A program made the translations under genes and the position numbers. Under the pieces are notes generated by a model, which was not told the origin of the DNA, ran no database searches, and was given only the letters and a program-made list of their open reading frames with translations. From Bryoerythrophyllum caledonicum (taxonomy: Eukaryota; Streptophyta; Bryopsida; Pottiales; Pottiaceae): 64,000 nt of DNA. Each line of letters opens with the position of its first letter. Position 1 is the first letter of the stretch. Location: positions 10,184,028 through 10,248,027 of the forward strand of contig OZ020519.1 in NCBI GenBank assembly GCA_963971425.1, given 5' to 3'. Below, piece after piece: positions 1 through 37,412 of this stretch.

Positions 1-1431
1 TGATGATGTGCAATGGGCATGCGTCAGGACTGTGACGCCTTCCGGAATGACAACACCTTTCTTGCGCAACTCCTTGATAATATCCACAATATTTTTTTCC
101 ACCACATTGCTCCAGAATGAGACAGTAGCCTTCTCTCCCACGAAGTTCAGGAGTTCAGTGGAACGAGGCCTTACTTTGATGTCTCTCGGTTGTCCCTGTT
201 TAAATTCCCCCCTGTCCACAAGAACTCCATTTAAGTAAAACACGACATGATAAACCCGATTTGATGTTACCTGATCCTCGGTTGGAGGCTCTCGGACGAT
301 CGTAGTAAGCTTCGTCGGACCTAAACCCAAAATACAAGTACGTAGACTGAGATGAGGAAGTTGTTCAGCACAGAGAAATTACAATTATACATATAGAAGT
401 GTTCCACATTCACAATCCAGAAATGCTCGATGGAAGAATGAGCACTATATAGATGATGGCACGTAAGTATGAATGTACATATTAGGCACCTGGGACAATA
501 GGTGGAGTATCCCTAGAAGTCTGAGCTACACCAACGACTTGAGCAGTCTGTGTGGGGTTTCTGTCATCGACATCGTTCGACTGTGTTGATCCTGCCGACC
601 CCTGAATACCAGTAATGAAGTGGTAAAAATACGGTCTGCATCAAGTGAACTATCCTTAGAACAATGAAGAAGGTTTGATGGACAAGAAACTATTCACCTT
701 ATATTTTTGGGCCCTTGTCCGAATTGTAGGTGGAGGACGAGCTTTCACCGCAAGATTCTTCGCGATTGCTTTCTTCTTCTCTTTTTGAACCAGCTGCCCG
801 TGGCTCCGCGGAGGGCTGCGCAGAGGGCTCATAGCATGTAATTCACGCAATGTGTGTTGCGCCGATGCCTCATCCATCGTTTGATCGGTGTCACGCAACG
901 TCAAGTCCTCGGCACTCTTGGACACAACCTCCACTAATGGACGCGTCCTCGAAGGGTCGTCCAGCGGGAGATCTCCGGGAGCTCTTTGGGTGTCGTCGAA
1001 GTCCAGGCGATCGGACATTGCCGTGTCATCGTCCCGATCTGGCGGAGGAGAACGTGGCATGCCGGAATGCCAACTGGTTTCCTTTTCAGAGATACCGAGT
1101 CTAGCGTCCGGAGTAGAGTTGCTTGTCGAACTAGGTGAGGCTTGCCTGATAGGAAGAGGTGGTTCATCAACGTTTACCTGTATGGGGTCGATTTGGGTGC
1201 CTGCACCGATGATCCGCGCGGCTGTGGCCAAGGACTGGAGTCCAATGTTGGGTGCTGCTGATGAACTCGGTTCATACCGCACATCAACTTCAATCATCGT
1301 GGCATCAGGCGTTTGCGTCACATTGACGAAGTCAGTGTGAAAAACATTAGGATGCAATACAAAAGAAAACGGTATGATATACCCGGAGATCTCCGGTTCA
1401 AAGTTATCCTTGTCTACCAAGCGAACTATAT
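1..1431 (-). CDS. FCP1/NIF-like HAD phosphatase gene of left copy (3' part outside window)
   Basis: Three exons are readable on the minus strand: 1,431-698, 601-490 and 320 to beyond base 1. Splice sites are GT-AG and the last two joins keep frame. The first exon encodes a Ser/Pro/Thr-rich, probably disordered stretch. The third encodes an FCP1 homology region: VVFYLNGVLV (motif I), RPRSTELLNF, then FWSNVVEKNIVDIIKELR. FCP1-type HAD enzymes dephosphorylate phosphoserine, often in the RNA polymerase II tail. The expected motif I nucleophile Asp is Tyr here but Asp in the right copy (FDLNGVL), so this copy is probably catalytically dead. The first exon carries two palindromes (1,383 in frame as EPEISG; 965, one mismatch). 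It may instead be the 3' half of the adjacent ParB-like unit; the join is unresolved. Confidence 0.6.
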
Positions 1432-1529
1432 CTGAGCATGGCCATGAGAAAGAAGAGCCCTAAAATATGGAGGGCATCCTAAACGTATGAACAGCCGGAG
1501 ATCTCTGGGTCATGTAGTTTTCTTAGGCG

Positions 1530-4500
1530 TTATACCTCGCTGGTGTAGTTCATCCTCGACATTGCCCGTGTTAGAACACCAGCCCCTGGGGTTGACCCAG
1601 TGATGGCAGTCTCCTCTGCCTCCTCGGAAACGGCGTCGGGTACGTTGGCTAAGATATTCAAGTGGTACTTGAATATTTCTTCTACGTAGGATTCTGCCTT
1701 GAGTTTGGCATCTTCGCTGCTCACAATCTCGAGGACCCGCGCGTCGTGAGTCTGCAAGATAAAACCTGCGTAAGGCATCATCCAAAACATATAGTTGAAT
1801 ACGGACCAGAAATCTTTGACGTTGAAGTGCTTGGGAAGGATGTCCTGCTTACCAATCCGAGGTATGTTAAATGTGGTCCACCATGGACATTGACGACCGC
1901 CATATCCTCTCTAATGAACCCCGTGAACAGCAAATCGAGGACCGAGATCCTCAGCTGTGGGACACCGGTTTGCTTCCAGCGCTGGATGGTTTCTGGATGT
2001 TGAGCACGTAAAAAGAAGGCCGGCATTTTGTCCGGATGGACTTTGTAGAGCCTCTTGAATGATTGAGCAGGCATCTCGCTCGAGTTGTATTCATACATGA
2101 ATACACAATACACTGCCTCCTCGACCCCGATTACTGGATTCGGAAGCCAATCACCTGGGTGGGGGAAGTAGTAGACCACATGCGTCGCCGACAATTTCAC
2201 CTTGTCCCTGGACTCTCTCTGCCGAAGACTCATGTAAATCTTCAATGCAACGAATCCCGCGACATCGATGATAAGAACGGACGGTGATCTAACCCTCGTC
2301 CTCCCGTCCTTCGTGTCCACTTCCAGATGGTCAAAAATGGTTCTGAGGTCCAACGCATCCAGGACCTGTGCACGGCATATGTCGTCTTTCACGCGACAAA
2401 GGAAAAAGAAGTAAAAGTGAGGGTCATTGACGTTACGCCACTCCTGAATGTCCGGCAGGATAAGTACTTCGGCGATCTCGCCCCCTCTCTCTGGCATAAC
2501 CCTGCAGGTGTATTTGGAGTCGAATAGGGACTTGTCATCCGTGGGTGTGGCCTCGGCAGCATCCTCAACGATGTGTTGACTCCAGATGGACACAAGGACG
2601 TCTAGGGTGGGGTCGGTCTCCTTGATGATCGCCTTCAGTCGACCCTCAAGCCAAGCTTTACCCTTAGCAGAGTGATTAGCGGCGTCCACCCAGGACTCGA
2701 GCTGAACCCGTCCAATATCCGACTCTTCCGCAAAGGCGTCCCACTGCTCCTTCGTGTAAGGAACGAAGTCAGCAGCCTTCAAGGGAAGGGGGTGCGACAT
2801 ATAATTTAACATCAGTTCATTCTTCATTGCCCGGATTCTCTTCTCCCTGTTCGCCGCGTTTTCGAGAGTCTCGGCCTGCCCTTTCATAGTACCTTGGTTT
2901 GCCGCTTTGGAGGACTTCACACAGACCTTCTTTGCGAGCACTAACTCTGGGAGGTAGTCCAGGTCTTCAGGGCGCATTTTGTAGAGTGGCTTAAAGTCGT
3001 TCTGTACTAAAGGCTTCCGCTTCAGGTTAGTTGGATCGCCAGTCTTCCCATTCGAGTCTGGTAGGAGTCCAGTGACGAACATCCTATCGATTCGGATCCA
3101 CTTCTGGACCACCGCGTCATCCATCTCGAATAGAAGAGGGACCTTCGCGTCTTTTGGATCAGTTTTGCCGAGGTGAGTGAAAACCGTCGGCACCACTTGC
3201 CGTTGGAACGTCTGCAATAATATATTACTCAGTGTGTGAGCACCCGGAGATCTCCGGTAGATTGGATTGGTTGCTTGAAGAATGAGCGCATTGATAATAT
3301 TGAAATATATTCAGGTGGAGAATTTTAGCTCACCGAGAATTCGTCAGATTTTGGACGACCATAGAGTTGGGGGGCGGGTTTTCCGAACTCAAACCACTTC
3401 ACTCTGCACGTTTGCAGCTGCTCTGTAAAACTCTGCTCCTTCCGCAAATCCGTCAGATCTTGGTTCAGAGCGCGCAAGAGTTGTAGCAGGGTCATGTCTT
3501 TGGGGTCCGGTTTGGTGCAAACCGAGATGATAGAGAAGTGCGAGATTTCTTCGAGCGTCGACGTTGTTGGCAGTTCGTTTGACAAGATCTTGTGCGTCTC
3601 CACAATATGCTGACCACCAATAATGTAAAAGTGTGTCGAATCCCTTAGGCAGTCCTCCTTTCTCGGCTTGGTCGCAAAGAACTCCACCTTAGTTCCTTCA
3701 GGTTTTTTCTTTAGTGGCAAGACTCGAATGTGAATCTCAGGTGCCGTGGCCTTCGAGGACGCGCGAACTACGTTGATGATTCCTTCGAGCCGTTCTTTCT
3801 GGATGCGCCTGTACACTAATCCTCTAGGGGGGGCCCTGTGTAGGTTATTGAAATGAACGAGCTTCACGACATCCTTCTTCGTGACAGGGTCTTCTACTGT
3901 CAAAGCCTTATTCTTGAGTATGTAAATGTTTTTGAACGCGTCGTCGAGAACCTTGCCAATTGCTTCAACTTTAGTCCGCTTCATTTTGGCGAGGTCAACC
4001 TGTGTGAAGTTCAGGCACTGTTTGATCGCGAGGCCAGGCTCATCGGCCTTCACTTTCTTTCCCTTCTCCGCCCGCGACGAGGAACCTGGGGTCGAAGTTT
4101 TCAACGTGGTCTTGCGTTTTCTTCCCGGGATTGATTCTGGTGTCAGAGATAGAATGGGTGTCGGGTCTGGAATGGGCTTTCGGGACTTCTCTTGTGCTTC
4201 TGCCATCCACTTCCACTGCTCATTAATGTACGCCGGGCTCCATGTATCACTCGTGGGAGGGTTGAATAAGAAGTTCTCATTCTGACATGTCTCCGCCATC
4301 GCATCCGAAATCTTAGATGTCTCCAAGATCAAGCCATATATAAGAGGCTCGGTGGATGAGTCCACGTTCTCCTGGATGACAAGGAGGCAGACCTCGTCAT
4401 CAAGACCCTGCATCTCTAGAACCTCGAGTCCAATGTCAAGGTGTTCCCGTTTTCCAATCCGAAGTTGGGGGACGTATTTCCAGGCTTCTTCAGGGGTTTT

Positions 4501-5996
4501 CAGGAGCTTTATTCCCCACTGGCCAATGCTCTCTCGGCATGTGTAGACGTAGCCAACATTGTGAATCCCTCTATAGACAAACTCAGGGAGCCAGAACTCT
4601 ACAAACGCCCCAAGCTTCCCGGGACGACATTCAGTCGGAAGTGTGGTTGTCCACGAATCCCTGCAAGATGAGTTCGAAAAAACACAAACGGAGTTAGAAA
4701 TCACTGCAATTAACCGGTAAACCGTAATCTATGGGGAGTCCGTCACTCTAAACCGGATGTATTTCTAGGGATGGAAGCCATAAAACGAGCTTCTAAATCA
4801 ATTTAACAGTGCCCCAGCTAGGGGAGGTCTTCGCATAATTATCAGATCTACAAACACTCGAATGATCTCAAATTGCTTGAAATATCTTGCATGCGCTCAG
4901 CCGGAGATCTCCAGTTTGGCAGGCAAGATCTGTAGTCGGCGTGAGGGGGTATCGAAACTCACTTGAAACGTCCCGAGATCTACAGCTCTATTTCGGATTT
5001 TGAGCAGCAATGGCCTTCATTTTTGTTCAATCCCACTGCGAAAGTATCCGGAGATCTCCGACCGATTTGTGGAAGTTGTGTGCATCCGTCCAGGAACGAT
5101 TCGGTGCGGATCAGACGGATCGATTTTTGTCCTGAACCGGGGATCTCTGGATGATGAACACAATGAAGAGTTTCACGATATTCACATCTTCCTCCGCGCG
5201 TATACGCACTGCTTTGTAACGTCCGGAGATCTCCGGCTATTTTCGAGATTTACTAAATCGTGGATATATATTTTAAGACTCATCAGACCTCAACATTATC
5301 CGAAGATCTCTGGCTGATAATTGGAACTCCGTATTCCATTCGGGATGCAACCGGAGATCTTCGGCTGCAGCAAGTACGGAATAACATTGCACTAATCGCT
5401 ACTGACCATCACGGGTATATTCACAATCATTCACAGAGAAATTTGACATACTACTCTGGAAGTTTTACATACTCAAATTACATGTTTCAAAATAGAAAAC
5501 ACAATGAGACCTATCAAATGCTCACACAATGCTTTCAATAACCGACCTTACACACAGGAAATTGAATCTGCAAATGTTTCCATGGAACGCCAAATGTGAT
5601 GTTTGTACATGGATTACTCTTCTCACATTGAATCGGACCAGACTCGAAAGACTCAGTATCGACAAGCACATTCTAACGTTCGTACAATACCATAATCACA
5701 CGCATATACATGAATTGAAACACACTTCTGTGTAGGGGACAACAAAAAATCAATCGACTATAGCCTAACAGACATCTGAATTCTAGTACTCAACTTCTGA
5801 GGTTTCTCTTCATTATTCAAGTGTTCCTCATTGTCATACACCCGCTCGGAATCAAAAGAACAAATCAAATTCGAATCACACTCAAATAAAGAATCCACAC
5901 ACGGTCGCTCGGACACAGCGGAAACAGTTCAATGTTGTGGACTTACCGGTCTCCTTTCCATGAAGTCTCACTCGACGTTCCAGCTCCAGTCGCCAT
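1530..5996 (-). CDS. ParB/sulfiredoxin-like multi-exon gene, left copy (apparently intact)
   Basis: Exons read by eye on the minus strand: 5,996-5,947 (ATG in good context, MATGAGTSSETSWKGD), 4,660-3,334, 3,211-1,853 and 1,751-1,530 (TAA). All introns are GT-AG and phases fit, giving about 985 aa. The start exon is supported because the right copy differs there only at silent positions. Residues of about 300-430 look ParB/Srx-like: a helix (QKERLEGIINVVRAS), a strand (EIHIRVLP), then FYIIGGQHIVETHKIL, resembling the ParB/sulfiredoxin G-x-H-R box, then another strand. ParB domains bind CTP or DNA, and relatives are nucleases or ATPases; activity here is unknown. A basic KR-rich linker lies before it, and residues after 460 match nothing I know. 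The first intron holds six CCGGAGATCTCCGG-like palindromes and the second holds one (3,244). No broken reading frame was seen. Confidence 0.6.
4901..5364. promoter_or_regulatory. Cluster of six 14 bp palindromes in first intron of ParB-like gene, left copy
   Basis: CCGGAGATCTCCGG (5,223) and five variants lie at 4,901, 5,048, 5,137, 5,300 and 5,351, spaced 147, 89, 86, 77 and 51 bp. The same order of spacings recurs in the right copy at 31,327-31,688, although individual sites have mutated. A binding site for an element-encoded protein is the simplest reading, but this is inference. Confidence 0.55.
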
Positions 5997-6498
5997 TTCC
6001 CAATCTCCTCGAAGAACTGCTCGGGATCAAAGTGAATTCACAGCTCTGAATAACATCAACATTCAACAACTCAGCTTCACAAACTCTACAATTTCTCAGA
6101 TGCCCTAGAATTTAAGGTCCAGATCTTATTGACAAGATTTCTGCAAAATCAATTTCAACATTGCATAACATGCTCATTTACAGACCTTCTATACTGAATG
6201 CACTAAACCCCAGAACCCTATACCCTAAGCCCTACAATTTCGCTTCAACGTCTAACAACATCAGAATTACTCGAGTCTCTTGAACCCTAATGGCGCTTAC
6301 CGAACCCTACACTTGCTCCAGTGCCGATTCTAAGCAGTCTTGGGCAACTACGATATTTGATGACATTGAATTTTAATCTGTGAGACAATACATACCTCTT
6401 CACTGACCGATTCGGCGCACCCGTTCGTCGTGGTCGTTCGTGAAGACGCCACCCTCAACCGCAACGTTGTTTCCGCTTCGCTGGTGAACCGAGGCGCT
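5997..6498 (-). promoter_or_regulatory. Leader and probable promoter region of left ParB-like gene
   Basis: The stretch is shared with the right copy (30,180-30,701). A likely untranslated leader exon ends GAAGAG before GTATGT at about 6,390, and an acceptor (ATTCAG) lies at about 6,046, before the ATG at 5,996. The 2.4 kb insertion at 6,499 lies just upstream in transcription, so it may have displaced the promoter. No long open frame is seen. Confidence 0.35.
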
Positions 6499-8932
6499 GT
6501 CGTGATGTAAATAACTACAGTATGTAAAAAAATAACGTAGATGCAAAAAGTGTGGTCGTAGAGTGACCTACAGTTTAATTCAATGTGGGAACAATTGGAG
6601 CTTGTTAGCCTAGCTTGGATGTACTACATCTGTCACTTTAGCTTAGGGGTAGGTAGGTGGCCAGTTGGCTGTTTATTTTCCTGCTCTCACTAGCAAGTGC
6701 CAAGCCGCAGCCGCCCGAACAGTTCAACGAGCTCAATGAGACTCGAACTCGGAATCAGTCGGCGGATAACAAACGGGCTCTAACAGCCAACCAAGTCTGC
6801 AACTTGGCGATTATCATCGAGCCCACAATAGTTTTATACTGCTACAGATAAGTCGTTTGTTTCTTAATCTGGCTTTACTGTGGACCTTCTTTTAGATGGA
6901 AAGGCATCTATGGCTACTTAAATTTGCTTAACCGTGTACTATTAAAGAAATGTCATTGAGTTAATGTTAGGGAAGGCAAGCTTCTTGATGAAGTTATCGA
7001 AAAACATATAAAGGGTAGATGGTTGCCGTGCCTTATGCATTACTTCAGGTCATTATTAGTTTGGATTGTTTCTTCTTTGTTTCTATAGGTTGATAGTATG
7101 GCTTCTCAAGACCCTGATGATTGGGAGTTTCTTTTAGCTCACTCACTAGATGATCTAATTCAACTTTCTCAACCATCGACATCAAGGCGGCATGAGCGAG
7201 AGGAAACAGGGCCTTTTGAGCGTCGTGTTCAACCACGTACCGCTTTTGATCCTCAACAAGTTCCTTTGACAAGTTTAAGAAGTTTACAACCGGAGGCAAG
7301 AACTTTAGTAATCGTCTTGGAGGTTGGAGATGTGTTTATCGAAGGCCATCAAGTGGTGTTTGAAGGGTGTTTTCAAAACATTAACAAAGGTCAAATGGTA
7401 ACCCGCTTGTCCAATGACCTTGGTCACCGTCTTTGGCTTCAAGGCCCACTCAGACACTTGGGTAGTGAAAGGCGAGCAAGTTACATTGGTGTTATTTTTC
7501 GTGAGATTCTTGACTTTTTACATGTGTAATCCATCTAGGGGCTGAAGTTGAGATAATTTATTGTTATTTCTTTTTATTTATTTGTGGTTAGTTGTTGTTG
7601 AAGAAACCCGGTCTTTAGATTGATGACCAGGTAGTTAGTGTTTAAAAATACAAAGAATAGAAGGGATAGAGGGATGATAAGAGTTGATAAGGGGGAGAAT
7701 TTGAGCAACCAATGGGGTTTAAGATGCCCATGTGGCCTTTGAATGGGCTGAGGTTAGTTGTGATTGGCTCCTTTTCCCGTTTTGGGGATTGAGTTCTTCC
7801 TTACCAAGGAGGGGCTGGACTGCGGGGGCTCTCTCTGGTTGTTTTTGTTGTAGTTTGTTTTGGATTTTGAGTATGTTGTAACCCTTGTTGTTATCTCTCT
7901 ATGAAGGTATCACTCAGTCTTAGAGCTAAAAATATGAGTGAACGGCACCTTGTCGAACACAAGGGGTCTGCTGCCCCATGTTTTCATGAGCAGTAGGTTT
8001 GAAGCCTTGAAGCGAGTTGTACAAAGTATATCTAAATGACATCTTTGGTGAGTGTTTGTACACTGTAAATATCTTTCCAAAGAGCTATCTTATGCTCTAT
8101 TTTGAGCTTTTGTGAAGTCATAGCACTAGTTTGAAAGAAAAGGGGTCAGCTGACTTGAGTTTTTGTAAGAAGTAACTTTGATTGCACATAGCGGCTGGAC
8201 ATATGAGTTTCTGAAAGTGAAATTTGGTGTGTATGTGGTGTATTTTAGTGGCTTTTCAAGTAACTATAGCACGTCTCATTCCGAGTTTGTATGAAACCGT
8301 AGTGGTATTTTGAATTAAAAGGTTAATCAAGAGTTTAAAAGAGAGTTTGAGTTCGGTTTATACTTAATGAGAGGTTAGATAAATGATTTCAAAGGAAGTA
8401 AGGGTATATTGGAGAAGCGTATGAAGTGGTTAGGGTATGTAAGGGTAAGGGTATGTGGGATTGAGGTTAATTAGGGAATTAATTATCTTAATCAAGGTTA
8501 ATTGTGTTAAGTAAGATTAACTAGTCTAATTGTAATCAATTAGCTTAACTAAAATTAAGTGGATTAATCAAGGTTAATCATTTTAGTTAAATATAATTAT
8601 CTTAACTATTAATTAATTATTATTAAGTGGAATTAGTTAATTTAATCAGAGTTTGATTAAGGCTTGATTTAGGTTAAGGATAATTAATGTTTTTAGTTAA
8701 GTTTTTGAGAGACAAGTTCTACAAGACATCTGCATCATATCTTATTATATGTACATCGAGTTTTATTATACAAGTTGAAGATCGGAGACCTTTCTGATAT
8801 GGTAAATGAGGACTTATAAGTTTATATGGACTTAGACACAAATCATATATTCTATATTCTCCCTTTCCCTCTCTAAACTAAGTGCAGCCAAGAACCCTGG
8901 GTTTTCCTGAAGCAAAGACTCTCTACACGATA
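6499..8932. mobile_element. 2.4 kb insertion private to the left copy, with GCGCT duplication
   Basis: The right copy reads without a break across the equivalent site (about 30,160-30,180). In the left copy GCGCT occurs on both sides (6,494-6,498 and 8,933-8,937), as expected for a 5 bp target duplication. The ends are GTCGTGATG and CTACACGATA and form only a weak inverted match (TCGTG/CACGA). No long terminal repeats were seen. It carries one possible gene (7,098-7,529) and otherwise AT-rich sequence with many TTAATTAA-like words (8,470-8,700). Class unknown. Confidence 0.7.
7098..7529 (+). CDS. Hypothetical 143-residue protein within the left-copy insertion
   Basis: The open frame starts at ATG (MASQDPDDWEFLLAHSLDD) just after a plausible 3' splice site (TTTCTATAG at about 7,089), so an upstream exon is possible. 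It begins acidic, has a polar middle (SQPSTSRRHEREETG) and ends in a more ordered half with VIVLEVGDVFIEGHQVVFEG. I do not recognise the family. It is present only in the left copy because the whole insertion is. It could be a transposon protein or a captured host gene fragment. The complementary frame 7,299-7,045 is a shadow. Confidence 0.4.
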   Translation: MASQDPDDWEFLLAHSLDDLIQLSQPSTSRRHEREETGPFERRVQPRTAFDPQQVPLTSLRSLQPEARTLVIVLEVGDVFIEGHQVVFEGCFQNINKGQMVTRLSNDLGHRLWLQGPLRHLGSERRASYIGVIFREILDFLHV

Positions 8933-9489
8933 GCGCTCGCTAAATTTAAACGCCTATTTCAATCTCTCTATTCCAGTCCTACTCTCCGACCTTCAGTCTA
9001 TATCCAAAAACAACCTCTGGACGATATGCTCAATGTCCCTCACTTTTATCAACACTCACCTCGCACACTGACAGCCTCTCACAGTGCACACCGCCCTAAC
9101 CTAGTGCGTTGACGCCTATTGCGCAAACCACGAAAAAAACCCCTCCCGCCACTTCCGCTCACTACCTACGACATAAAAAAGACAGAACCCATAAAAAACA
9201 AGAAAGGTTTGATGCTTGGAGTTTTCCTAACCCAATAAGGACAAGCTGGATGGCTCAAGGGTGTGACGGCTCATGATGACAGTGGGTGAACTAAAAAATC
9301 AGCTCTAATCACGTACATATACAACGTGTACATTTCACAATTATGACATAGTCAATGTCGTGAGCATACGTGAGAAGACGTATTGATACCCGGATTCTTG
9401 GGTATTACATATGACTACAGTAGATACTCGGTTTCACCGGGTATTAGAGTAATCATTATACTTCAATTTAAAACGTCATAAGTGAAAAA

Positions 9490-10215
9490 GCTTAATCTCC
9501 CTCTCTGTTAGTCTCCCTCCCTTCTTTCCCTCACTTGTTTTTCTTATTTATATTTTGCTCTCCCCTCCTTCTCCATCTCCCTCTAATTTTTAATCTTCAT
9601 TCTAATAATTTTTAGACTCCCCGTGATTTCAATAATTACACATTCTTAAATTATCCTACTACTCTAAAAATAAATCCCGCACTCTCCCTCCCTTACTCTC
9701 CCTCCACATCTCTTTTTTACATTTGGTTTTCTTTTTAGATTCCCTTTATTACATACTCTAAAAATATAAACTACTTTAAAATAAATCCCTCCCTTACTCT
9801 CCCTCTCTTCCTTATTCTCCCTCCCTTACTGTCCCTCCTACTTGTTCTTAATTTATTATACTCTTACTCTCCTCTCCTTCTCCATCTCCATCTCTATTTT
9901 CCTTTTGAATTTTAATTTTTGGGATTTCCCTTTTTTCAATAGATTCACATTCTAAAATTAAATAACTACTCTCAAAAACAATCCCGCACTCTTCCTCGCT
10001 TACTCTCCCTCCCTATCCCTTGTTCTCCCTCACTTCCTTACTCTCCCTCTCCATCTCTTTTCTAATTTTGATTTTTTTTTATTCCCTAAATTCCCCTAGT
10101 GGCATATTCTAAAAATATAAACTACTTTAAAATAAATCCCTCCCTTACTCTCCCTCTCTTATTCTCCTTCTCAATTATTGTCCTTCCCTTACTCTCCCTC
10201 TCCCTTGATTTTAAT
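9490..10215. repeat. Pyrimidine-rich CTCCCTC arrays, left copy
   Basis: Irregular runs built on TTACTCTCCCTCCC are interleaved with AT-rich stretches and recurring phrases such as CTACTTTAAAATAAATCCC. The complementary purine-rich version lies at 28,790-29,600. Such strand-asymmetric tracts can form triplex DNA. No coding is evident despite local open frames. Confidence 0.6.
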
Positions 10216-10959: not shown

Positions 10960-11052
10960 GTAGAAACCCTGAACCCTAAACCCTAAACATTGAACCCTGA
11001 ACTTTTAACCCTAAACCCTAAACCTAGACCCTAAACCCTAAAACCCTAAACC
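10960..11052. repeat. Interstitial telomere-like repeats, left copy
   Basis: Degenerate units of plant telomere type (CCCTAAA, with variants such as CCTAGAC and CCCTGAA) are embedded inside the element. The right copy has the complementary block, partly converted to a homogeneous TCTAGGG array. Confidence 0.75.
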
Positions 11053-25153: not shown

Positions 25154-25267
25154 TCTTCCTGCCTCCGTCGGTCGATGTTCGGCTGGTGGCCGATGGCCTT
25201 AGTACATGAATATGTGGACGTGGATTAGAACTGAAAAACCATGGTCAAAATCGTAGGGTGTGACTAG

Positions 25268-26235: not shown

Positions 26236-26407
26236 CTGCAAATTAGAAAACGGAAGATGAAGTATGCCCCATGGTGTGTCTTTTGTGATTACAAGGGCCG
26301 TATCACGTCATGGACTAAGTATAATTTAATAGTATTATTCTTCTTGTACTCACCATTGTGAATGAAATTATACCCTACGCATAGATAACAGTCGGCCCAC
26401 TGCTGCC

Positions 26408-27649
26408 CACTACACTAAAAGTTTCATTTAGTGTAATGGCACGAATAGTGTACTTACCTTTGTACTTTAATTGCAAACAACTTGACAAATAGTGTACTAA
26501 TTGCAAACAAGTGTACATTCTAATTAGTTAATTCGATCAAAAATTACTTCATCAATAATAACTTTATCGGAGTACACTCCATGGAAACTTTTTTTTTTAA
26601 AGCTTACTTTTACAAGATATTACTTATTCACGTTTTACTTCTTAAAAAGTTAACTTTTACAAAATTTACTTTTCCAAACATCAACTTTTTAAAAACTTTA
26701 CTTTACCATACATTTACTTTTACCAAACATTTACTTTTTCAAAACTTTACTTTACCATACAATTACTTTTACCAAACATTTACTTTTTCAAAACTTTACT
26801 TTACCATACATTTACTTTTTCCAAACATTTACTTTTTCAAAAATTTACTTTACCATACAATAACGTTTTCAAAACTTTACTTCTTCGAAACCTTACTTTT
26901 TCAAAACTTAACTTTTTCAAAAATTTACTTTCTTCCAAGTTTACTTTGAAATAGTGAACTTTTGAAATAGTTCACGTTTTCAAAAGTTCACTTTTTCAAA
27001 AGAAAATTATTTCAGAAGTTCACTTTTTCAAAAGAAAATTATTTCAAAAGTTCACTTTTTCAAAAGAAAATTATTTCAAAAGTTCACTTTTTCAAAAGTA
27101 AATTATTTCAAAAGTTCACTTTTTCAGACGTCTACTTTATCAAATCTTTACTTTTTCAAATGTTCACATTTGGGAAAGCTTATTTTTACAAAAGTTTACC
27201 TTTTCAAATGGTAAGTTGTCTTTTTTCCCCGAATTGATGTTTTTTCATAGTTCTTGTTTTTCTCAAAAATGTTGTTTCTTCCTAAATGTTTTTTCCTAAT
27301 TGTTGTTTTCGCAAAAATGTTGGTTTTACCTATTTGTTGTTTTCCCAAATTGTTGTTTTTTCCTAATTATTATTTTTTCGCAATTGTTGTTTTTCCAATT
27401 TTTTGTTTAAGAGTTTTATTTTTTCTCTTCTTCACCTTTGAGAACACATAATTCTCTTCTACTTTCAATACACTAAACGTGCACAAGTAAAATAGTTGAT
27501 ATTCCAATCAAGTTTACAAAAGTTCACAAATAGTGTAGTAGTTCACATTTAGTGTACTATTTTGTCACTACACTAATTGCGTAGTTGACAATTAGTGTAT
27601 GGGTTCGTATTTAGTGTGCACTACACTAAATGAAACTTTTAGTGTAGTG
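26408..27649. mobile_element. CACTA-type non-autonomous element inserted in the right copy
   Basis: It begins CACTACACTAAAAG and ends CTTTTAGTGTAGTG, with the first 32 bp of each end also forming their own small hairpin (CACTACACTAAA...TTTAGTGTA). The left copy lacks it: at the matching site (11,263-11,270 region) it has eight other bases instead. It contains no gene, only AT-rich tandem arrays. A clean 3 bp target duplication is not visible (GCC before, TTG after). It shares end structure and the phrase AATAGTGTACTTACC with 45,781-48,665, so both belong to one family. Confidence 0.8.
26590..27220. repeat. AT-rich tandem arrays inside the CACTA-type element
   Basis: The first half repeats phrases such as TTTACTTTACCATACATTT and TTTTTCAAAACTTTAC. 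The second half (about 26,985-27,120) has roughly four copies of a 32-34 bp unit containing TTCACTTTTTCAAAAG and AAAATTATTTC. The open frame across it (26,581-26,949) is a by-product of the repeats. Confidence 0.8.
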
Positions 27650-27859
27650 TTGTTCAACTCACACTACAGGACACAAGTAGAACGTCGACATTCGTTTCCA
27701 ATGTGAAATATCTCCAAAATTTCCTAGTTCGACAGAAGCTGTTTGTCTACTTTTGAAGATACGTGCAGAAATATATAACCGAGCAGATGCTTTTAAAAGT
27801 ATAGCAACCTGGTCCTATGAAAACGAGTACAACTTCCGTGGTAAGGCAGGATTGTTCAT

Positions 27860-28075
27860 CACGGTTTTAGGGTTTACGGGTTTAGGGTCTAGGGTCTAGG
27901 GTCTAGGGTCTAGTGTCTAGGGTCTAGGATCTAGGGTCTAGGGTCTAGGGTCTAGGGTCTAGGGTCTAGGGTCTAGGGTCTAGGTTTAGGGTTTACGGTT
28001 TAAAGTTTCGGGTTCACTATTTACAGTTTAGGGTTTAGGGTTTAGGGATTCTACTTCACGGTTTGGGGTTGAAGG
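27860..28075. repeat. Telomere-like block with homogeneous TCTAGGG array, right copy
   Basis: TTTAGGG-type units flank a run of about 14 copies of the heptamer TCTAGGG (27,885-27,985). The left copy has only scattered variants, so the array expanded after the copies separated. Confidence 0.85.
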
Positions 28076-30175
28076 TTAAGGGTTCACGGTTTACGGTTCA
28101 CCGTGGAAGGTTCTGGGTTCATGAAGGTCGAAGGCTTATATCACCTTTAAATCTATAAATTAAAAATTTATTGATACTATGAACTATAACCTTAAATTTA
28201 TCAATAACTATAACTTTAAAAAAAACTGGATTCAATAGCGTGTAAGAAAATTTAGCGATAATTGAACTTTAACTATTTAAGACTTTGATACATTATAATT
28301 TAGTTAGAGGGAGAATAAAGAAGAGAGGGAGGATAATGGATATAACTTTAGAGTAGACTAGCTGTTGGCGCTTGCTTTGCAATGCATTAGCCCAACCATT
28401 TTTATGTATTTTTTATATTTAAAAATACTAAAAAATGAAAGGTGGAATGATTCACTGTACAGTTGACACCGCGGTTCAAGTAGCATTTTTGTAGTTCACA
28501 GCATGGTTGACTACGCGATAGTTCACTTCGTGGTTTATGGCGCAAATTATGATTTTAGTACTATGGCTAGGAGTTGGGGCTTGCTTTGCAACGCATTAGT
28601 TCAACCATTAATGTAGTTTTAATATCACAAAATATTTAAGAAGAAAGGTAACAACAAAGTATATATCTCTTTGAAACCTATGCATGATTTAATAATGCAA
28701 TAGAATAGAATAGAAAAAATAATTTTACTATTTCAATAGTACAATATTAATAACCAAGAATGGATATTGAGTAGGAGGGGTAATTAAAAGTAAAATAAAT
28801 TAAAATCAAGGGAGAGGGAGAGTAAGGGAAGGACAGTAATGGAGAAGGAGAGTAAGAGAGTGAGAGGAAGGGAGGGATTTATTTTAAAGTAGTTTATATT
28901 TTTAGAATATGCCACTAGGGAAATTTAGGGAATAAAAAAAAAAGTCAAAATTAGAAAAGAGATGGAGAGGGAGAGTAAGGAAGTGAGGGAGAATAAGGGG
29001 TAGGGAGGGAGAATAAGGGATAGGGAGGGAGAGTAAGCGAGGAAGAGTGCGGGATTGTTTTTGAGAGTAGTTATTTAATTTTAGAATGTGAGTTTATTGA
29101 AAGAAGGAAAATCCAAAAAAATAAACTTCAAAAGGAAAATAGAGATGGAGATGGAGAAGGAGAGGAGAGTAGGAGTATAATAAATTAAGAACAAGTAGGA
29201 GGGAGAGTAAGCGAGGGAGAATAAGGCAGAGAGGGAGAGTAAGAGAGGGAGAGTAAGGGAGGGATTTATTTTAAAGTAGTTTATATTTTTAGAATATGCC
29301 ACTAGGGGAATTTAGGGAATTAAAAAAAAAAGTCAAAATTAGAAAAGAGATGGAGAGGGAGAGTAAGGAAGTGAGGGAGAATAAGGGATAGGGAGGGAGA
29401 GTAAGCAAGGAAGAGTGCAGGATTTATTTTTAGAGTAGTAGGTTAATTTAAGAATGTATAATTATTGAAATCAGGGGGAGCCTAAAAACTACTAGAATCA
29501 AGATTAAAAATGAGATGGAGATGGAGAAGGAGGGGAGAGCAAAACATAAATAAGAAAAACAAGTGAGGGAAAGAAGGGAGGGAGTGTAACGGAGAGGGAG
29601 ATAAAGCTTTTTCACTTGTGACGTTTTAAATTCAAGTATGATGATTACTCTAATACCCGGTGAACCCGAGTATCTACTGTAGCCATATGTAATACCCAGG
29701 AATCCGGGTATCAATACCTCTTGTCACGCATGCTCACGACATTGACAATTCATGATTGTGAAATGTACACGTTGTATATATACGTGATTAGAGCTGATTT
29801 TTAAGTTCACCCACTGTCATCATGAGCCGTCACAGCCCTTGAGCCATCCAGCTTGTCCCTATCGGGTTAGGGGAACTCCAAGCATCAAACCTTTTTTGTT
29901 TTGTATGGGTGTTGTCTTTGTAATGTCGTAGGTAGTGAGCGGAAGTGGCGGGAGGGGTTTTTTTCGTGGTTTGCGCAGTAGGCGTCAACGCATTAGGTTA
30001 GGGCGGTGTGCGCTGTGAGAGGCTGTCGGTGTGCGAGGTGAGTGTTGATAAAAGTGAGGGACATTGAGCATATCGTCCAAAGGTTGTTTCTGGATATGGA
30101 CTGAAGGTCAGAGAGCAGGACTGGAACAGAGATACTGAAATAGATTTTTAAATTTAGCGAGCGCCTCGGTTCACG
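28076..30175. other. AT-rich core of right copy, no gene recognised
   Basis: It mirrors the left core. Between 28,880 and 29,440 a phrase starting TATGCCACTAGGG recurs after about 360 bp, a local tandem duplication with purine-rich runs. No credible coding and no palindromes of the CCGGAGATCTCCGG type. Confidence 0.55.
28790..29600. repeat. Purine-rich GGGAGAGTAAG arrays, right copy
   Basis: These are the complement of the left-copy pyrimidine arrays: irregular repeats of GGGAGAGTAAGGGAGGG alternating with AT-rich phrases. The right copy has an extra duplicated segment relative to the left. Confidence 0.6.
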
Positions 30176-30701
30176 AGCGAAGCTGAAACGACGTTGCGGT
30201 TGAGGGTGGCGTCTTCACGAACGACCACGAGGAACGGGTGCGCCGTATCGGTCAGTGAAGAGGTATGTACTGTCTCACAGATTGAAATTCAGTGTCTTCA
30301 AATATCGAAGTTTCCCAGGACTGCTTAGAATCGGCACTGGGGCAGGTGTAGGGTTCGGTAAGCGTCATTAGGGTTCAAGAGAGTCGAGTAATTCTGATGT
30401 TGTTTGACGTTGAAGCGGAATTGTAAGGCTTAGGGTATAGGCTTCTGGTATTCAGTGCATTCAGTATAGAAGGTTCGGAAATGAGCATGTTATGCATGTT
30501 ATGCGTGTAAATGAGCATGTTATCCGCAAATGAGCAGTGTTGAAATTTATTTCGCGGAAATCTTGTCAATCAGATGTGGACCTGAAATTCTAGGGCATCT
30601 GAAAAATTGTAGAGTTTGTGAGGCTGAGTTGTTGAACGTTGATGTCATCCAGAGCTGTGAATTCGCTTCGATCCCGAGGAGTTCCTCGAGGAGGTTGGGA
30701 A

Positions 30702-33700
30702 ATGGCGACTGGAGCTGGAACATCGAGTGAGACATCATGGAAAGGAGACTGCTAAGTCCACAACATTGAATTGTTTTCACTGTGTCCGAGCGACTGTGTG
30801 TGGATTCTATATTTAATTGTGATTCAAGTTTGTTCATTTGATTCCTAGCGGGTGTATGACAACAAAGTACACTTAAATAATGAAGAGAAACTTCAGACAA
30901 TGAGTACTAGAATTCAGATATCTGTTAGGTTATAGTCGATTTTATTTTTGATGTCCCATGAACAGAAGTGTGTTTCGAATCATGAATTTGCGAGTGATGA
31001 TGGTATTGTACGAACGTCAGAATGTGCTTGTCCATACTGAGTCCTTCGAGTCCGGTCCGATTTAATGACAAGAGTAATCCATGTGCAAACCTCACATTTG
31101 GCGTTCCATCGGAACATTTGCAGATTCAATTTCCTGTGTGTAAGGTCAGTTATTGAAAGCATTGTGTGAGCATTTGATTCATCTCGGTGTGTTTTGTAAC
31201 TTGAAACATGAATTTTGAGTATGTAAAACTTCTAGTGTAGTATGTCAAACTTCTCTGTGAATGAATGTGAATATACGCGTGATGGTAAGTTGCGATTAGT
31301 GCAATGTTAATCCGTACTTGCATCAGCCGGAGATCTCCGGTTGCATCCCGAACGGAATACGGAGTTCCAATAATCAGCCGGAGATCTCCGGATAATGTCG
31401 AGGTATGATGAATCTTGATATATTTTCTCACGATTTAGTAAATCTCAGAAATATCCGGAGATCTCCGGACGTTACGAAGTAGTGCATATACGTTCCTGGT
31501 CAGATGCACACGACACCCGCAAATCAGTCGGAGATCTCCGGATACGTTCGCAATGGAATTTATCGAAAACGAACGCCATTGCTGCTCACAATCCGACATA
31601 GAGCTGTAGATCTCGGGACGTTTCAAGCATGCTTCGATACCCCCTCACGCCGACTACAGATCATTCCTGACGAACCGGAGATCTCCGGCTGAGCTCATGC
31701 AAGATACTTCAAGCGATTTAAGATCAGTCAAGTGTCTGTAGATCTGATAATTGTGCGAAGACCTCCCCTAGCTTGGGAAGTAATAAAATATTTTAGAAGC
31801 TCGATTTCTATCATCCACCCCTAGGAATGCAACGGATTTTGAGTGACGGACTCTCCATAGGATACCAGTCAATTGCAGTGATTCCTAACTGCGATTGTGC
31901 TCTTTCAAACTCATCTTGCAGGGATTTGTGGACAACCACACTTCCGACAGAAAGTCGTCCCGGGAAGCTTGGGGCGTTTGTAGAGTTCTGGCTCCCTGAG
32001 TTTGTCTACAGAGGAATTCACAATGCTGGCTACGTCTACAAATGCCGAGAGAGCATTACCCAGTGGGGAATGAAGCTCTTGAAAACCCCTGAAGAAGCCT
32101 GGAAATACGTCCCCCAACTTCGGATTGGGAAACGGGGACACCCCGACATTGGACTCGAGGTTCTAGAGATGCAGGATCTTGACGACGATGTCTGCCTCCT
32201 TGTCATCCAGGAGAACGTGGACTCATCCACCGAGCCTCTCATATACGGCTTGATTCTGGAGACATCTAAGATTTCGGATGAGATGGCGGAGACATGTCAA
32301 AATGAGAACTTCTTATTCAACCCTCCCACGAGTGATACATGGAGCCCGGCGTACGTTAATGAGCAGTGGAAGTGGATGGCAGAAGCACAAGAGAAGTCCC
32401 GAAAGCCCATTCCAGACCCGACACTCATTCTGTCCCTGACACCAGAATCAACCCCGGGAAGAAAACGCAAAACAACCTTGAAAGCTTCGACCCCAGGTTC
32501 CTCGTCGCGGGCAGAGAAGGGAAAGAAAGCGAAGGCCAATGAGCCTGGCCTGGCGATCGAAAAGTGCCTAAACTTCACACAGGCTAACCTTGCCAAAATG
32601 AAGAGGACTGAAGTTGAAGCAATTGGCAAGGTTCTCGACGACGCGTTCAAGAACATATACATACTCAAGAATAAGCCTTTGACAGTAGAAGACCATGTCA
32701 CGAAGAAGGATGTCGTGAAGCTCGTTCATTTCAATAATCTACATAGGGCCCCCCCTGGAGGATTAGTGTACAGGGACATCCAGAAAGAACGGCTCGAAGG
32801 AATCATCAATGCAGTTCGTGCGTCCTCGAAGGCCACAGCCCCAGAGATTCACATTCGAGTCTTGCCACTAAACAATAAACCTGACGGAACTAAGGTGGAG
32901 TTCTTCGCGACCAAACCGACGAAGGAGCACTGCCTTAGGGACACGACACACTTTTACATTATTAGTGGTCAGCATACTGTGGAGGCGCACAAGATCTTGT
33001 CACACGAACTGCCATCAACGTGGACGCTCGAAGAAATATCGCACTTCTCTATCATCCCGGTTTGGATCAAACCAAACCCCAAAGACATGACCCTGCTACA
33101 ACTCTCGCGCGCTCTGAACCAAGATCTGACGGGTCTGCGGAAGGAGCAGAGTTTTACCGAGCAGCTGCAGACGTGCAGAGTGAAGTGATTTGAGTTCGGG
33201 AAACCCGCCCCCCAACTCTATGGTCGTCCACAATCTGACGAATTCTCGGTGAGCTTACATCCTCCAGCTGAATATATTTCAATTTCATCAATGAGCTCAT
33301 TCTTCAAGCAACAAATCCAATCTACCGGAGATCTCCGGGTGCTCACACACTGAGTTATATATTATTGCAGACGTTCCAACGGCAAGTGGTGCCGACGGTT
33401 TTCACTCACCTCGGCAAAACTGATCCAAAAGACGCGAAGGTCCCTCTTCTATTCGAGATGGATGACGCGGTGGTCCAGAAGTGGATCCAAATCGATAGGA
33501 TGTTCGTCGCTGGACTCCTACCAGACTCGAACGGGAAGACTAGCGACCCAGCTAAGCTATAGCGAAAACCTTTGGTGCAGAACGACTTCAAGCCACTCTA
33601 TAAAATGTGCGTTGAAGACCTTGACTACCTCCCGGAGTTAGTGCTCGCAAAAAAGGTCTGTGTGAAGTCCTCCAAAGCGAGCCGCGGCAAACCAAGGTAC

Positions 33701-35067
33701 TATGAAAGGGCAGGCTGAGACACTCGAAAACGCGGCGATTAGGGAGAAGAGAATCCGGGCTATGAAGAATGAACTCATGTTAAATTACAAGTCGCACCCC
33801 CTTCCCTCGTAGGCTGCTGACTTCGTCCCTTACACGAAGGAGCAGTGGGACGCCTTTGCGGCAGAGTGGGATATTGGACGGGTTCAGCTCGAGTCCTGGG
33901 TGGACGCCACAAATCACTCTGCCAAGGGTAAAGCTTGGCTTGAGGGTCGACTGAAGGCGATCATCAAGGAGACCGACCCCACCCCGGACGTCCTTGTGTC
34001 CATCTGGAGTCAACACATCGTTGAGGATGCTGCCGAGGCCACACCCACGGATGACAAGTCCCTATTCGACTCCAAATACACCTGCAGGGTTATGCCAGAG
34101 AGAGGGGGCGAGATTGCCGAAGTACTTATCATGCCGGACATTCAGGAGTGGCGTAACGTCAATGACCCTCACTTTTACTTCTTTTTCCTCTATCGCGTGA
34201 AAGACGACATATGCCGTGCATAGGTCCTGGATGCGTTGGAGTTTAGAACCATTTTCGATCATCTGGAAGTGGACACGAAGGACGGGAGGACGAGGGTCAG
34301 ATCACCGTCCGTCCTTATCACCGATGTCGCGGGATTCGTTGGATTGAAGAGGTACATCAGTCTTCGGCAGAGAGAGTCTAGGGGCAAGGTGAAATTGTAG
34401 GCGACGCATGTGGTCTATTACTTCCCCCACCCAGGTGATTGGTTTCCGACCCCAGTAATCGGGGTCGAGGAGGCAGTGTATTGTGTATTCCTATATGAAT
34501 ACGACTCGAGCGAGACGCCTGCTCAGTCATTCAAGAGGCTCTACAAAGTCCACGCAGACAAAATGCAGGCCTTCTATTCAGCTGCTCAACATCCAGAAAC
34601 CATCCAACGTTGGAAGCAACCGGTGTCCCACAGCTGAGGATCTCGGTTCTTGATTTGCTGTTCACGGGGTTCATTAGAGAGGATATGGTGGTCGTCAATG
34701 TCCATGGTGGACCACATTTAACATACCTCGGATTGGTAAGCAGAACATCCTTTCCAAGCACTTCAACGTCATAGATTTCTGGTCCGTCTTCAGTTATATG
34801 TTTTGGATGTTGCCTTACGCAGGCTTTATCTTGCAGACTTACGACGCCCGGGTCCTCGAGATTGTGAGCAGCGAAGATGCCAAACTCAAGGCAGAATCCT
34901 GCGCAGAAGAAATATTCAAGTACCACTTGAATCTCTTAGCCGACGTACCCGACGTACCCGACGCCGCTGCAGAGGAGGCAGAGGAGACTGCCATCACTGG
35001 GTCAACCCCATGCGCTGGTGTTCTAACACGGGCAATGTCGAGGATGAACTACAGCGGCGAGGTATAA
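30702..35067 (+). pseudogene. ParB/sulfiredoxin-like gene, right copy (broken)
   Basis: It mirrors 5,996-1,530. The start exon (MATGAGTSSETSWKGD) is kept but its donor changed from GGTAAGT to GCTAAGT. The large exon (from 31,922) retains the ParB-like box FYIISGQHTVEAHKIL but ends at a TGA (33,186-33,188) where the left copy has TGG. The next exon (from 33,371) has TAG at 33,560 in place of AAG, further stops (for example 33,810 and 34,222) and small indels. The first intron still carries five palindromes. It is probably non-functional, but useful as an outgroup for testing selection on the left copy. Confidence 0.8.
31327..31688. promoter_or_regulatory. Cluster of five palindromes in first intron of ParB-like gene, right copy
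   Basis: Exact sites lie at 31,327, 31,378, 31,455 and 31,675, and a variant at 31,528 (TCGGAGATCTCCGG). Spacings of 51, 77, 73 and 147 bp mirror the left copy. Another exact site lies in the second intron (33,326). Confidence 0.55.
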
Positions 35068-35165
35068 CGCCTAAGAAAACTACATGACCCGGAGATCTCC
35101 GGTTGTTCATACGTTTAGGATGCCTTGCATATATTAGGGCTCATATTTCTCATCGCCTTGCTCAG

Positions 35166-36302
35166 ATATAGTTCACCCGGTTGACATGGACCACTTTGAA
35201 CCGGAGATCTCCAGGTGTGTTATATCGTTCTCATTTCAATTGCATCCCAATGTTCTTCACACTGACTTCGTCAATGTGACCCAGACGCCTGATGCCACGA
35301 TGATTGAAGTTGATGTGCGGTATCAGCCGACTTCATCAGCGGCACCCAACATTGAACTCCAGTCCTTGGCCATTGCCGCGCGGATCGTCGGTGCGGGCAC
35401 CCCATCCCACCCCATACAAGTAGACGTTGATGAACCACCGCTTCCTATCAGGCAAGCCTCGCCTAGTTCGAGAAGCAACTCTACTCCGGCCGCTAGAGTC
35501 GGTACTCCTGAAAAGGAAACCAGTTGGCATTCCGGCATGCCATGTTCTCCATCGCCTGGTCGGGACGATGACACGGCAATGTCCGATCGCCTGGACTTTG
35601 ACGATTCCCAAAGAGCACCCGGAGATCTCCCGTTGGCCGACCTCTCGAGGACGCGTCCATTAGTACTGTTCTAGGGATACTCCATCAAATCGGGTTTATC
35701 ATGTCGTGTTTGACTTAAATGGAGTTCTTGTACACAGGGGGGAATTCAAAGAGGGACAACTGAGAGACATCAAAGTAAGGCCTGGTTCCACTGAACTCCT
35801 GAACTTCGTGGGAGAGAAGGCTACTCTCTCATTCTAGAGCAGTGTGTTGGAAAAAAATATTGTGGATATTATCAAGGAGTTGCGCAAGAATGGTGCTGCC
35901 ATTCCGGAAGGCGTCACAATCCTGACGCAGGCCCATTGCACAAAAACATCATATACGCTCCCATCCCATCCATCGAAGCCAATTTTCCTTAAGGAACTGA
36001 CAATTTATAACGCCAAGGCGTGGCCCAGGTCTCCCAAGGATGTCTTGCTTGTGGACGATACTCCACTAAAGAACGTCCTTAACGATACATTCAGCGCAGT
36101 TCATCCGCCATCATGGACTGGGAATTCGAAAGATACCTGGGTGTCCACCATTTTTCTCCCATGGCTCTCCGGACTGCTAGCGTCAAATGAGGATGTTCCC
36201 GACTTTGTTAGACGTCATCCATTGATGTTTGCCAGTGATCCAGTAGACAAAAATTCCAAAGAGGCCCGGTCCGTGGTGAAGGGCATAATTTTGGCTCCTT
36301 AG
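35166..36302 (+). pseudogene. FCP1/NIF-like HAD phosphatase gene, right copy (deleted and nonsense)
   Basis: The Ser/Pro-rich exon (from 35,166) matches the left copy to about 35,660, then two deletions remove the intermediate exons and fuse it near TCTAGGGATACTCCA. The phosphatase domain follows: VVFDLNGVLVHR (motif I with Asp), RPGSTELLNF, SSVLEKNIVDIIKELR, then KDVLLVDDTPLKN (motif III/IV) and FSAVHPPSWTG, ending VVKGIILAP. A TAG at 35,837 stands where the left copy has TGG (Trp of the WSS box). Motif I reads D-x-N rather than D-x-D, as I recall from a plant FCP1-like subfamily. Palindromes occur at 35,089, 35,201 (variant) and 35,619 (variant). Confidence 0.75.
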
Positions 36303-36657
36303 AACAATGAATTATACTGGTTATTTTAAACTCTATGCTTTGTAAATGTTACGTCAAGGATGTTTGTGGGATTTCGACCATTCAATTTTGAAGATAAATG
36401 TTGTTGTCAGTAACATTATTTGTTGAGGTCCTTCTTTTTATTTGTTATTGTTAGTGTCTCGCCCCCAAGCTTCACCTTCCAATATCTGTGATCACTTCTG
36501 AGTATTCTCCTGACCATTTCGACTGCCGAACGTTGGTCTGGGAGGGTCACCCGGAGATCTCCGGTCGAATTCGTGTCACTTGAACTCCTCCTACCATATT
36601 TTCTCCTCATTCCAATGCTCTATTTCTAATTCGATGGTCTTGCCTTCTTATTTGCAG
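36303..36657 (+). other. Intron or intergenic stretch with one exact palindrome
   Basis: No coding is evident between the two FCP1-like modules. An exact CCGGAGATCTCCGG lies at 36,551 and a good acceptor (TTATTTGCAG) ends the stretch. Whether the upstream TAG at 36,300 is the real stop or the two modules are spliced together is unclear. Confidence 0.4.
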
Positions 36658-37110
36658 GTCATAATAATATCACTCCGCGGTCCTCTCTGCTCGGACGAGG
36701 TCCTTGACTCGGCCAAATCCCGCTCCATGCAGTTGCCTTCCTTTGATGACACGGCAGATGTTATTCGAATACTACTGCGGTATTTCAATGTCGGGATCTG
36801 GTCTCCTATGCGTCCAGATAAGCTCATGGAGGCGGCCCAAGTGTTATTGCCCCCAGACATCTTATCAGATATTCTTTTTTGCTATGCCAGCAAACAGACT
36901 CGAAGGCCCACCTATGTTAGGTTTCTCCACATCTTCAAGTAGGCCTCATTTAATCCTCGAACAAGGCATTATTTGTGGCCCAAATGTGTTGTTGTTGCAG
37001 ATCTAGATCCATTCAAGAATCCTAGAAAGGCTATAGTTCATTATCTAACTTATGGGAGACACCATACTGGACGGGTAGAGGGCATCTGTAAAGCACTTAA
37101 ATTAGAATAG
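36658..37110 (+). pseudogene. Second, degenerate FCP1-like domain exon, right copy
   Basis: After the acceptor the frame reads VIIISLRGPLCSDEVLDSA, RYFNVGIWSPMRPDKLMEAA and LLPPDILSDILFCYAS. This follows the FCP1/NIF pattern of motif I, the WSS-type box and the following strand. Motif I has SLRGPL where an active enzyme has DLNGVL, so both expected catalytic acidic residues are missing. A TAG at 36,940 interrupts the frame, which then continues with PKCVVVADLDPFKNPRKAIV, resembling the motif IV region, to TAG at 37,108. It is either a pseudophosphatase module or a decayed duplicate. The left-copy equivalent lies outside the window. Confidence 0.55.
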
Positions 37111-37226
37111 TTGAATCGATTTTCCATAGATTACACGCGCCTCTTAGCAACGGCTACCCCTCATTTATTGTATGACACTTTTTTATAATGAAATAGTTTA
37201 GTATTGGACTCTTACTCTCATTTCAT

Positions 37227-37412
37227 CCGGAGATATCCGGTTGCATGTTCTATCAATTGCGAGTATCTTCTGTCCGTAGCTCTGTCCCAGTTTTCCCTAC
37301 CACATTTTTCCTAACCACACATTTGTGATGTACAGTATGTCCATCAATTTCTGTTCTCAGGACTCGGTTCTTCTTCTGAATTCCACCTTGATATTTTCCC
37401 GGAGATATCCGG
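37227..37412. repeat. Subterminal GATATC-type palindrome pair, right copy outer end
   Basis: CCGGAGATATCCGG occurs at 37,227 and 37,399, about 200-400 bp from the outer terminal repeat. Both element ends therefore carry pairs of the same central variant. Confidence 0.7.

Follow-up and report, generated by a model that had tools for sequence, protein, structure and literature searches.

Family-specific palindromes in DUF7869 transposons of the moss Bryoerythrophyllum caledonicum as candidate recognition sites of an element-encoded protein

What is a perfect 14-bp palindrome doing when it recurs throughout a transposon and is absent from the DNA beside it? The question is raised by a 64,000-nt stretch of contig OZ020519.1 of the moss Bryoerythrophyllum caledonicum (the window, in what follows), which holds two copies of a large element, here called family A, whose main gene encodes a DUF7869 protein, the putative transposase. 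The palindromes are present in the element, conserved across its copies, placed at particular positions and replaced by different site sets in sister families. Judging from these sequence patterns, we think it likely that they are recognised by a dimeric protein which the element itself encodes, which co-evolves with them and which serves self-recognition and regulation. An element-wide site for an element-encoded regulator was among the suggestions of the preliminary description of the locus; it stands as the best reading, supported by the motif-only conservation, the placement and the sister palindromes, with the binder itself putative.

The palindrome-bearing DNA had been assumed to be a single element. 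It actually consists of two inverted transposon copies of about 18 kb (1-17,921 and 19,749-37,633), separated by a 1.8-kb spacer and 92.1% identical over 14,709 aligned bases; most of the sites are mirror pairs, and the independent ones, about 24 per copy, had been over-counted. The ends are terminal inverted repeats (TIRs), the terminal sequence starting ATGCCATAT, and they are flanked by target-site duplications (TSDs):

19749..37633: right transposon copy, 17.9 kb long and bounded by 26-bp TIRs; from the inverted-repeat and end analysis, the TIR recurring in other copies
19749..19774, plus strand: inner TIR of the right copy, with TSD ACAA directly before it (19745-19748)
37608..37633, minus strand: outer TIR of the right copy, with TSD ACAA directly after it (37634-37637)
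1..17921: left copy, inverted, recognised by its identity to the right copy; its outer 1.7 kb or so lies beyond the window (L132:8317-10000), with the outer TIR in L132
17896..17921, minus strand: inner TIR of the left copy, with TSD TGAA (17922-17925); the same TGAA precedes the outer TIR in L132

The TSD is 4 bp long in all four copies with both ends read, two further copies on contig C1 having TAGG and ACAA, and the combination of TIRs and a fixed-length TSD identifies the element as a DNA transposon. Since the TSDs of the window copies are unlike (ACAA versus TGAA), the two represent separate insertions, which rules out one giant palindromic element.

The 26 exact copies of the palindrome that had been counted in the window were all found, from 1,383 to 36,564. 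The further "about 15 one- or two-base variants" do lie within 965-37,412, as described, but their number is 19, 15 with one mismatch and four with two. The absence outside the element was borne out as well: at up to two mismatches there are no sites in the 1.8-kb spacer, none in 37,634-64,000 and none in a further 20 kb of flank (L133, L134). Dinucleotide shuffles gave an expectation of 0.14 matches at up to two mismatches, with a largest count of 2, against the 45 seen. Across the organism's own genome of 437 Mb, the exact palindrome occurs 2,718 times and its reversed control three times; the 50 positions listed of the 2,718, all on C1, fall into four clusters (of 16, 16, 7 and 11) that are further element copies, one of them truncated. 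In 100,096 bp of element DNA, there are 77 exact and 127 near sites (up to two mismatches), while 113,909 bp of other DNA of the same genome, including 40 kb around distant DUF7869 genes, hold none at up to two mismatches. A similar density in unrelated genome regions, named at the outset as the outcome that would speak against an element-specific site, is thus not what the genome contains. Of 58 papers containing the 14-mer, its terminal variant or the inner 10-mer, the 20 listed have the 10-mer alone.

The site extends somewhat beyond the 14-mer. Across 20 internal sites, C stands at position -3 in 21 of the 40 half-sites and A at -2 in 31 of 40, a preference that gives the site the form CA-n-CCGGAGATCTCCGG-n-TG, about 20 bp in length. 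Apart from these two positions, the flanks of family A sites are unrelated, and their spacings are irregular. The unrelated flanks refute a tandem-repeat origin of the family A sites, and together with the irregular spacings and the chance expectation of 0.14 they make pure chance, or the spreading of one tandem repeat unit, a negligible explanation, even with a 61-bp tandem array found upstream of a distant DUF7869 gene (L158:1928-2380) and a 28-bp spacing of sites in part of a sister-family copy (L168).

The conservation of the sites is confined to the motif. Taking the 24 right-copy sites as reference and leaving out unalignable positions, we counted 11/336, 2/280, 8/308, 10/335 and 2/154 motif differences in five other copies (one truncated), whereas the 40-bp flanks on each side diverge by 12.1, 23.8, 24.9, 19.8 and 28.7% in the same copies; the range is 0.7-3.3% for sites against 12-29% for flanks. 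The six central bases show a single difference in 605, and the footprint is sharp, with 0-4.7% divergence per position within the half-site, 8.9% at -2 and 16-30% elsewhere. The 21 sites paired between the window copies comprise 294 motif positions, of which 10 differ, against 34 expected from context-specific rates. The non-coding DNA of the element also holds other short stretches that are equally conserved, and the sites are not its sole conserved parts.

The placement of the sites is best read against the genes of the element, given here by their right-copy coordinates unless stated otherwise; a gene is taken to start at the earliest ATG in its open frame or at its first conserved codon.

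21697..25153, minus strand: DUF7869 (PF25273) transposase gene, exons about 25153-24635, 24511-23834 and 23640-21697 (Pfam, tblastn)
31827..33185, plus strand (left copy 4701-3328, minus strand): ParB-like accessory gene, open as far as 33185, with 15 homologues (tblastn)
33368-34738, plus strand, split over two frames (left copy 1781..3214, minus strand, open): 479-aa accessory gene, with three homologues
20274..20603, minus strand (left copy 16937-17398, plus strand): acidic open reading frame (ORF), dN/dS 0.52

The sites, with their left-copy mates, are distributed as follows.

19876..20087: terminal-class sites CCGGATATCTCCGG at 19876 and CCGGAGATATCCGG at 20074 (mates at 17781 and 17585); one base differs in one of five other copies
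37227..37412: terminal-class sites CCGGAGATATCCGG at 37227 and 37399, identical in the four copies reaching them
21297..21601: three sites, 21297, 21380 and 21588 (mates 16369, 16286 and 16080), between the transposase 3' end and the acidic ORF, with a degenerate one at 21184
23750..23763: one site within the transposase intron (mate 13919), in the exon gap 23834/23640 given by tblastn
24740..24753: the single site inside homology-supported coding sequence, in a variable linker (mate 12929)
25268..25563: four sites upstream of the transposase, 115-397 bp from its assumed start at 25153 (mates 12118-12414)
31327..31688: five sites upstream of the ParB-like gene, 139-487 bp from its assumed start at 31827, plus a degenerate one at 31604
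4901-5364: left copy, seven sites upstream of the ParB-like gene, two of them degenerate
33325..33338: one site, immediately 5' of the conserved portion of the 479-aa gene (mate 3244)
35089..35632: sites 35089, 35201 and 35619 around the next ORF (mates 1495, 1383 and 965)
36551..36564: internal site near the outer end

Homology-supported coding sequence makes up 33% of a copy and holds one of 23 sites (P = 1.1e-3), and the sites cluster upstream of genes. One lies 84 bp upstream of the ORF following the 479-aa gene, and that at 35619, perhaps also that at 35201, falls within an open frame unsupported by homology. At each end, the two outermost sites form a class of their own, with AGATATC in 4/4 terminal and 0/19 internal sites; one base is changed in one copy, and they are otherwise invariant across the copies compared. 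Beyond the window, the outer part of the left copy (L132) contributes two sites of this terminal class and one internal site with one mismatch.

A search of the same genome with the homologue P0005, which is close to a Ceratodon protein, revealed, among the 68 scored of 4,375 candidates, two more families beside A, and we compared one B1, one B2 and two C loci. Each has a scattered palindrome of its own: GTCGGCGGSCCGCCGAC with 12 sites in B1, GTCGGCTGSCAGCCGAC with 13 sites in B2 and ATCGTAGGATCCTACGAT with 12 sites in each of the two C loci. When palindromes were searched for de novo, with 15 shuffles per setting, shuffled sequences yielded at most 1-4 against 12-14 observed, and with the motifs fixed the maximum in 50 shuffles was one. 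Across the genome, the C pattern is matched 303 times on the plus and 313 times on the minus strand, and its reversed control not at all. Motif A has no match in the B1, B2 and C loci, nor do their motifs have any in A.

The kinds of position occupied are nevertheless alike. The intron before the last transposase exon contains one site in each of A, B1, B2 and C (in B1 and B2, the intron is the gap between aligned exons). In two C loci, L165 and L166, a site cluster lies upstream of the transposase, and the right end is a TIR of the A kind. The gene order of A recurs in L168, a longer C copy whose upstream part carries a ParB-like and a 479-aa gene, both diverged; the ParB-like gene is preceded by 11 C sites, and two more lie between it and the 479-aa gene. 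A stretch of this copy upstream of the ParB-like gene (L168:4881-5066) has its C sites at a regular 28-bp spacing. That the site sequence differs between families while the kinds of position persist fits one reader co-evolving with its sites.

The same comparison bears on two readings that need no element-encoded binder. A host transcription factor might drive the element genes through the palindrome, a form of promoter parasitism that would account for the site clusters upstream of genes; we regard this as improbable, given that at up to two mismatches 114 kb of other DNA hold no site, that the 50 positions listed of 2,718 are all in element clusters, and that sister families in the same genome use other palindromes. 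The palindromes could also act as a silencing decoy, a copy-number sensor or an RNA-level hairpin; they are able to form hairpins and their copy number is high, but neither the decoy nor the sensor has specific support here, the positions near the ends, upstream of genes and in an intron speak against these roles, and a conserved core with variable flanks, together with sister-specific sets, fits protein recognition better, which leaves this family of explanations very improbable.

Several observations weigh against the element-encoded reader that we prefer. The accessory proteins have no HMM match to any known DNA-binding family. The B1 and B2 motifs are close and for the most part match each other's sites (11 and 9 sites), and the base that tells them apart is itself mixed in B1. 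Among the C-motif genome matches listed, many cluster and some stand alone, not tied to C copies. Between two close C copies, the sites are no better conserved than the copies as a whole (5/216 differences versus 2.5% overall). Finally, no comparable scattered palindrome is present in five distant DUF7869 loci of 8 kb each (23-28% identical), so that such sites are not a general property of the transposase family; in one of them (L159), only TA-rich runs exceed the shuffles, and three others besides the one with the 61-bp array have nothing clear.

The mechanism that we envisage is as follows. A homodimeric, sequence-specific protein encoded by the transposon would recognise the palindrome of about 20 bp, occupying the gene-upstream sites, the transposase intron and, near both ends, the slightly altered subterminal class. 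The element would thereby recognise its own copies, its genes would be switched as one regulon, and its non-coding DNA would probably be kept from silencing. Every family would have its own protein-site pair, and the whole site set would shift together when the specificity shifts. Binding, dimerisation, regulation, anti-silencing and self-recognition at the ends are all things that we infer.

Which protein might be the reader? The likeliest, tentatively, is the ParB-like accessory protein, perhaps together with its 479-aa neighbour; it is slightly favoured because its upstream region is the most densely decorated in A and C, as self-regulation predicts. Of 19 A transposases, 16 have a ParB-like gene no more than 20 kb away, judging from 91 scored of 1,406 ParB-like candidates. 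The corresponding zeros for B (0/41) and C (0/8) are uninformative, both because so few candidates were scored and because a diverged ParB-like gene is present in L168; at the edge of the B1 locus, such a gene is hinted at (hhalign P 0.005, probability 7%), and the pairing of palindromes with accessory genes is seen in A and in C. The 479-aa protein acting by itself is a third candidate, and an unlikely one.

The transposase comes second as a candidate, possible and less likely than the ParB-like protein. In its pure form, this alternative has the DUF7869 transposase bind the subterminal sites for end recognition and the upstream sites for autoregulation, with the accessory proteins unneeded for recognition, which we hold to be a serious if rather doubtful proposition. 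The conserved, distinct terminal class near both ends speaks for the transposase as reader, and so does an outside relative, L129, a 4.3-kb contig cut at both ends. Its transposase, 33% identical, is the sole long ORF, and a fifth palindrome, TTTAGCTCGASTCGAGCTAAA, occurs seven times (at up to five mismatches) upstream and downstream of that ORF and never inside it; the record is labelled a cyanobacterial metagenome-assembled genome and is probably eukaryotic contamination. On the other hand, accessory genes may lie beyond the cut ends of L129, most family A sites are far from the ends, the densest region in A and C is upstream of the ParB-like gene, and the distant DUF7869 loci lack such sites. 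We had also considered the 5.8 kb shared by L165 and L166 as a transposase-only C element, and rejected it: L166 continues with L168, and L165 is merely cut short on the left, which removes one argument for the transposase as binder.

In a variant of the ParB-like reading, the ParB-like and 479-aa proteins would work together as a self-marking module, binding the palindromes and modifying or protecting the DNA of their own element. The two genes are adjacent in both A and C, and an IIGGQHTVE-like motif can be seen by eye in the alignment of the ParB-like protein; it is from this short motif that the label in the preliminary description derives, and no profile supports it. Scanned against Pfam, PHROGs, NCBIfam and PDB sequences, the protein had no match to ParB, only unrelated matches below the cut-off, and the 479-aa protein and its homologues matched no DNA methyltransferase HMM, the single PDB-sequence match being a PHD finger protein (E 0.75). 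With neither function supported by HMMs or PDB sequences, we consider the module somewhat unlikely. A published parallel exists in the giant Ectocarpus Sola1 element and in green and red algal elements, for which one report suggests that a ParB-methyltransferase accessory protein may bind and modify its own transposon (PMC12477816). The likeness is a giant DNA transposon with a ParB-like accessory gene (PMC12477816); unlike the algal case, there are two separate genes here, neither domain is HMM-supported, and candidate cis sites are at hand.

Three other known systems invite comparison. Elements of the CACTA (En/Spm) type, defined by CACTA termini and a Tnp2-type transposase, have subterminal repeated short sites near both ends that are bound by the element-encoded TnpA. 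The repeated short sites near both ends are shared, with an element-encoded binder there and a putative one here, but our sites are palindromic and also lie internally, upstream of genes, and the termini described above and the DUF7869 transposase place the element outside CACTA. Bacterial ParB/parS systems likewise have palindromic sites, and a ParB-like motif is present in a protein of our element; the parS sites, however, function in DNA partition, whereas those described here are gene-upstream and subterminal in a plant transposon, and profiles do not assign the protein to ParB. The closest analogue is the VANDAL/VANC system. VANDALs are MULE-type elements, and a VANC-type protein or MULE-type transposase would be expected to produce a Pfam match; none was found in the element ORFs scanned. 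DUF7869 elements also differ in having a distinct terminal site class and other proteins. According to the Arabidopsis reports, VANC proteins bind short family-specific motifs in non-coding VANDAL DNA, as seen by chromatin immunoprecipitation sequencing and electrophoretic mobility shift assays, and remove methylation (PMC5735166; PMC10398659). A short family-specific motif, its location in non-coding regions of a DNA transposon and the difference between related families are features in common (PMC5735166), and by analogy the present system may work like VANDAL/VANC. In the same source, the VANC21 motif is 9 bp and target motifs occur as tandem repeats (PMC5735166), in contrast to a palindrome of 14 to 21 bp that is non-tandem in A; in part of C, the sites have the 28-bp spacing noted above.

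It is an open question how large transposons escape silencing and how they prevent their own proteins from mobilising competing families. The genome studied here contains several related families whose palindromes differ but occupy similar positions, and in which the co-evolution of protein and site over dozens of sites can be read directly, and the palindromes supply candidate cis sites for the published idea that ParB-like transposon proteins bind their own element, making that idea testable. A bolder reading, speculative and in our view doubtful, is that this is a plant transposon clade with a private-address code: family-own palindromes of about 20 bp at matching functional positions, upstream of genes, in one intron and at the ends, onto which a ParB-like protein would load and mark or protect the element as self, many families coexisting without cross-talk.

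The largest ORF of the element matches Pfam PF25273 (DUF7869) with E 2.1e-45 and 155 bits against a cut-off of 26, and it is as the main gene of a TIR element that we take its product to be the transposase; a link between DUF7869 and transposons was not found in the literature searched. The top named homologues are from the mosses Ceratodon and Physcomitrium, followed by Riccia, a liverwort, and a weaker match is a single sea urchin protein. A first look at the organism's own genome gave 3,613 DUF7869 candidates; all 150 that were scored exceed the cut-off, and many have open frames of 1066-1087 aa. Additional ORFs are also encoded by the element. Across the ORFs tested, dN/dS between the left and right window copies is 0.18-0.63, so the two copies diverged mainly as selected elements. 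Near the outer ends, at 1-378 and 35838-36299 of the window, an element gene has weak matches, below the cut-off, to NLI-interacting-factor (NIF) phosphatase.

Scans with Rfam and for tRNAs found nothing. In viral contigs, three protein scans found no relative, the TIR core had eight matches, and the motif occurred in at least 120 stretches, each of the 80 listed having it in a single place; we read both sets of matches as chance. A perfect palindrome of about 30 bp (19763-19792, core CTGGACTTTGCAAAGTCCAG) overlaps the inner part of the TIR and is kept in other copies. Relative to the right copy, the left has a 2.4-kb insert (6498-8933) with an open frame at 7089-7526, perhaps a nested element, and both copies contain degenerate telomere-like TTTAGGG/CCCTAAA repeats (27866-28098 and 10914-11052). 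Outside the element, the flank carries exostosin GT47 and DUF4218 genes (39549-41069 and 56977-57894), DUF4218 being associated with CACTA elements, and a 192-bp inverted repeat with arms 450 bp apart (43530-44363).

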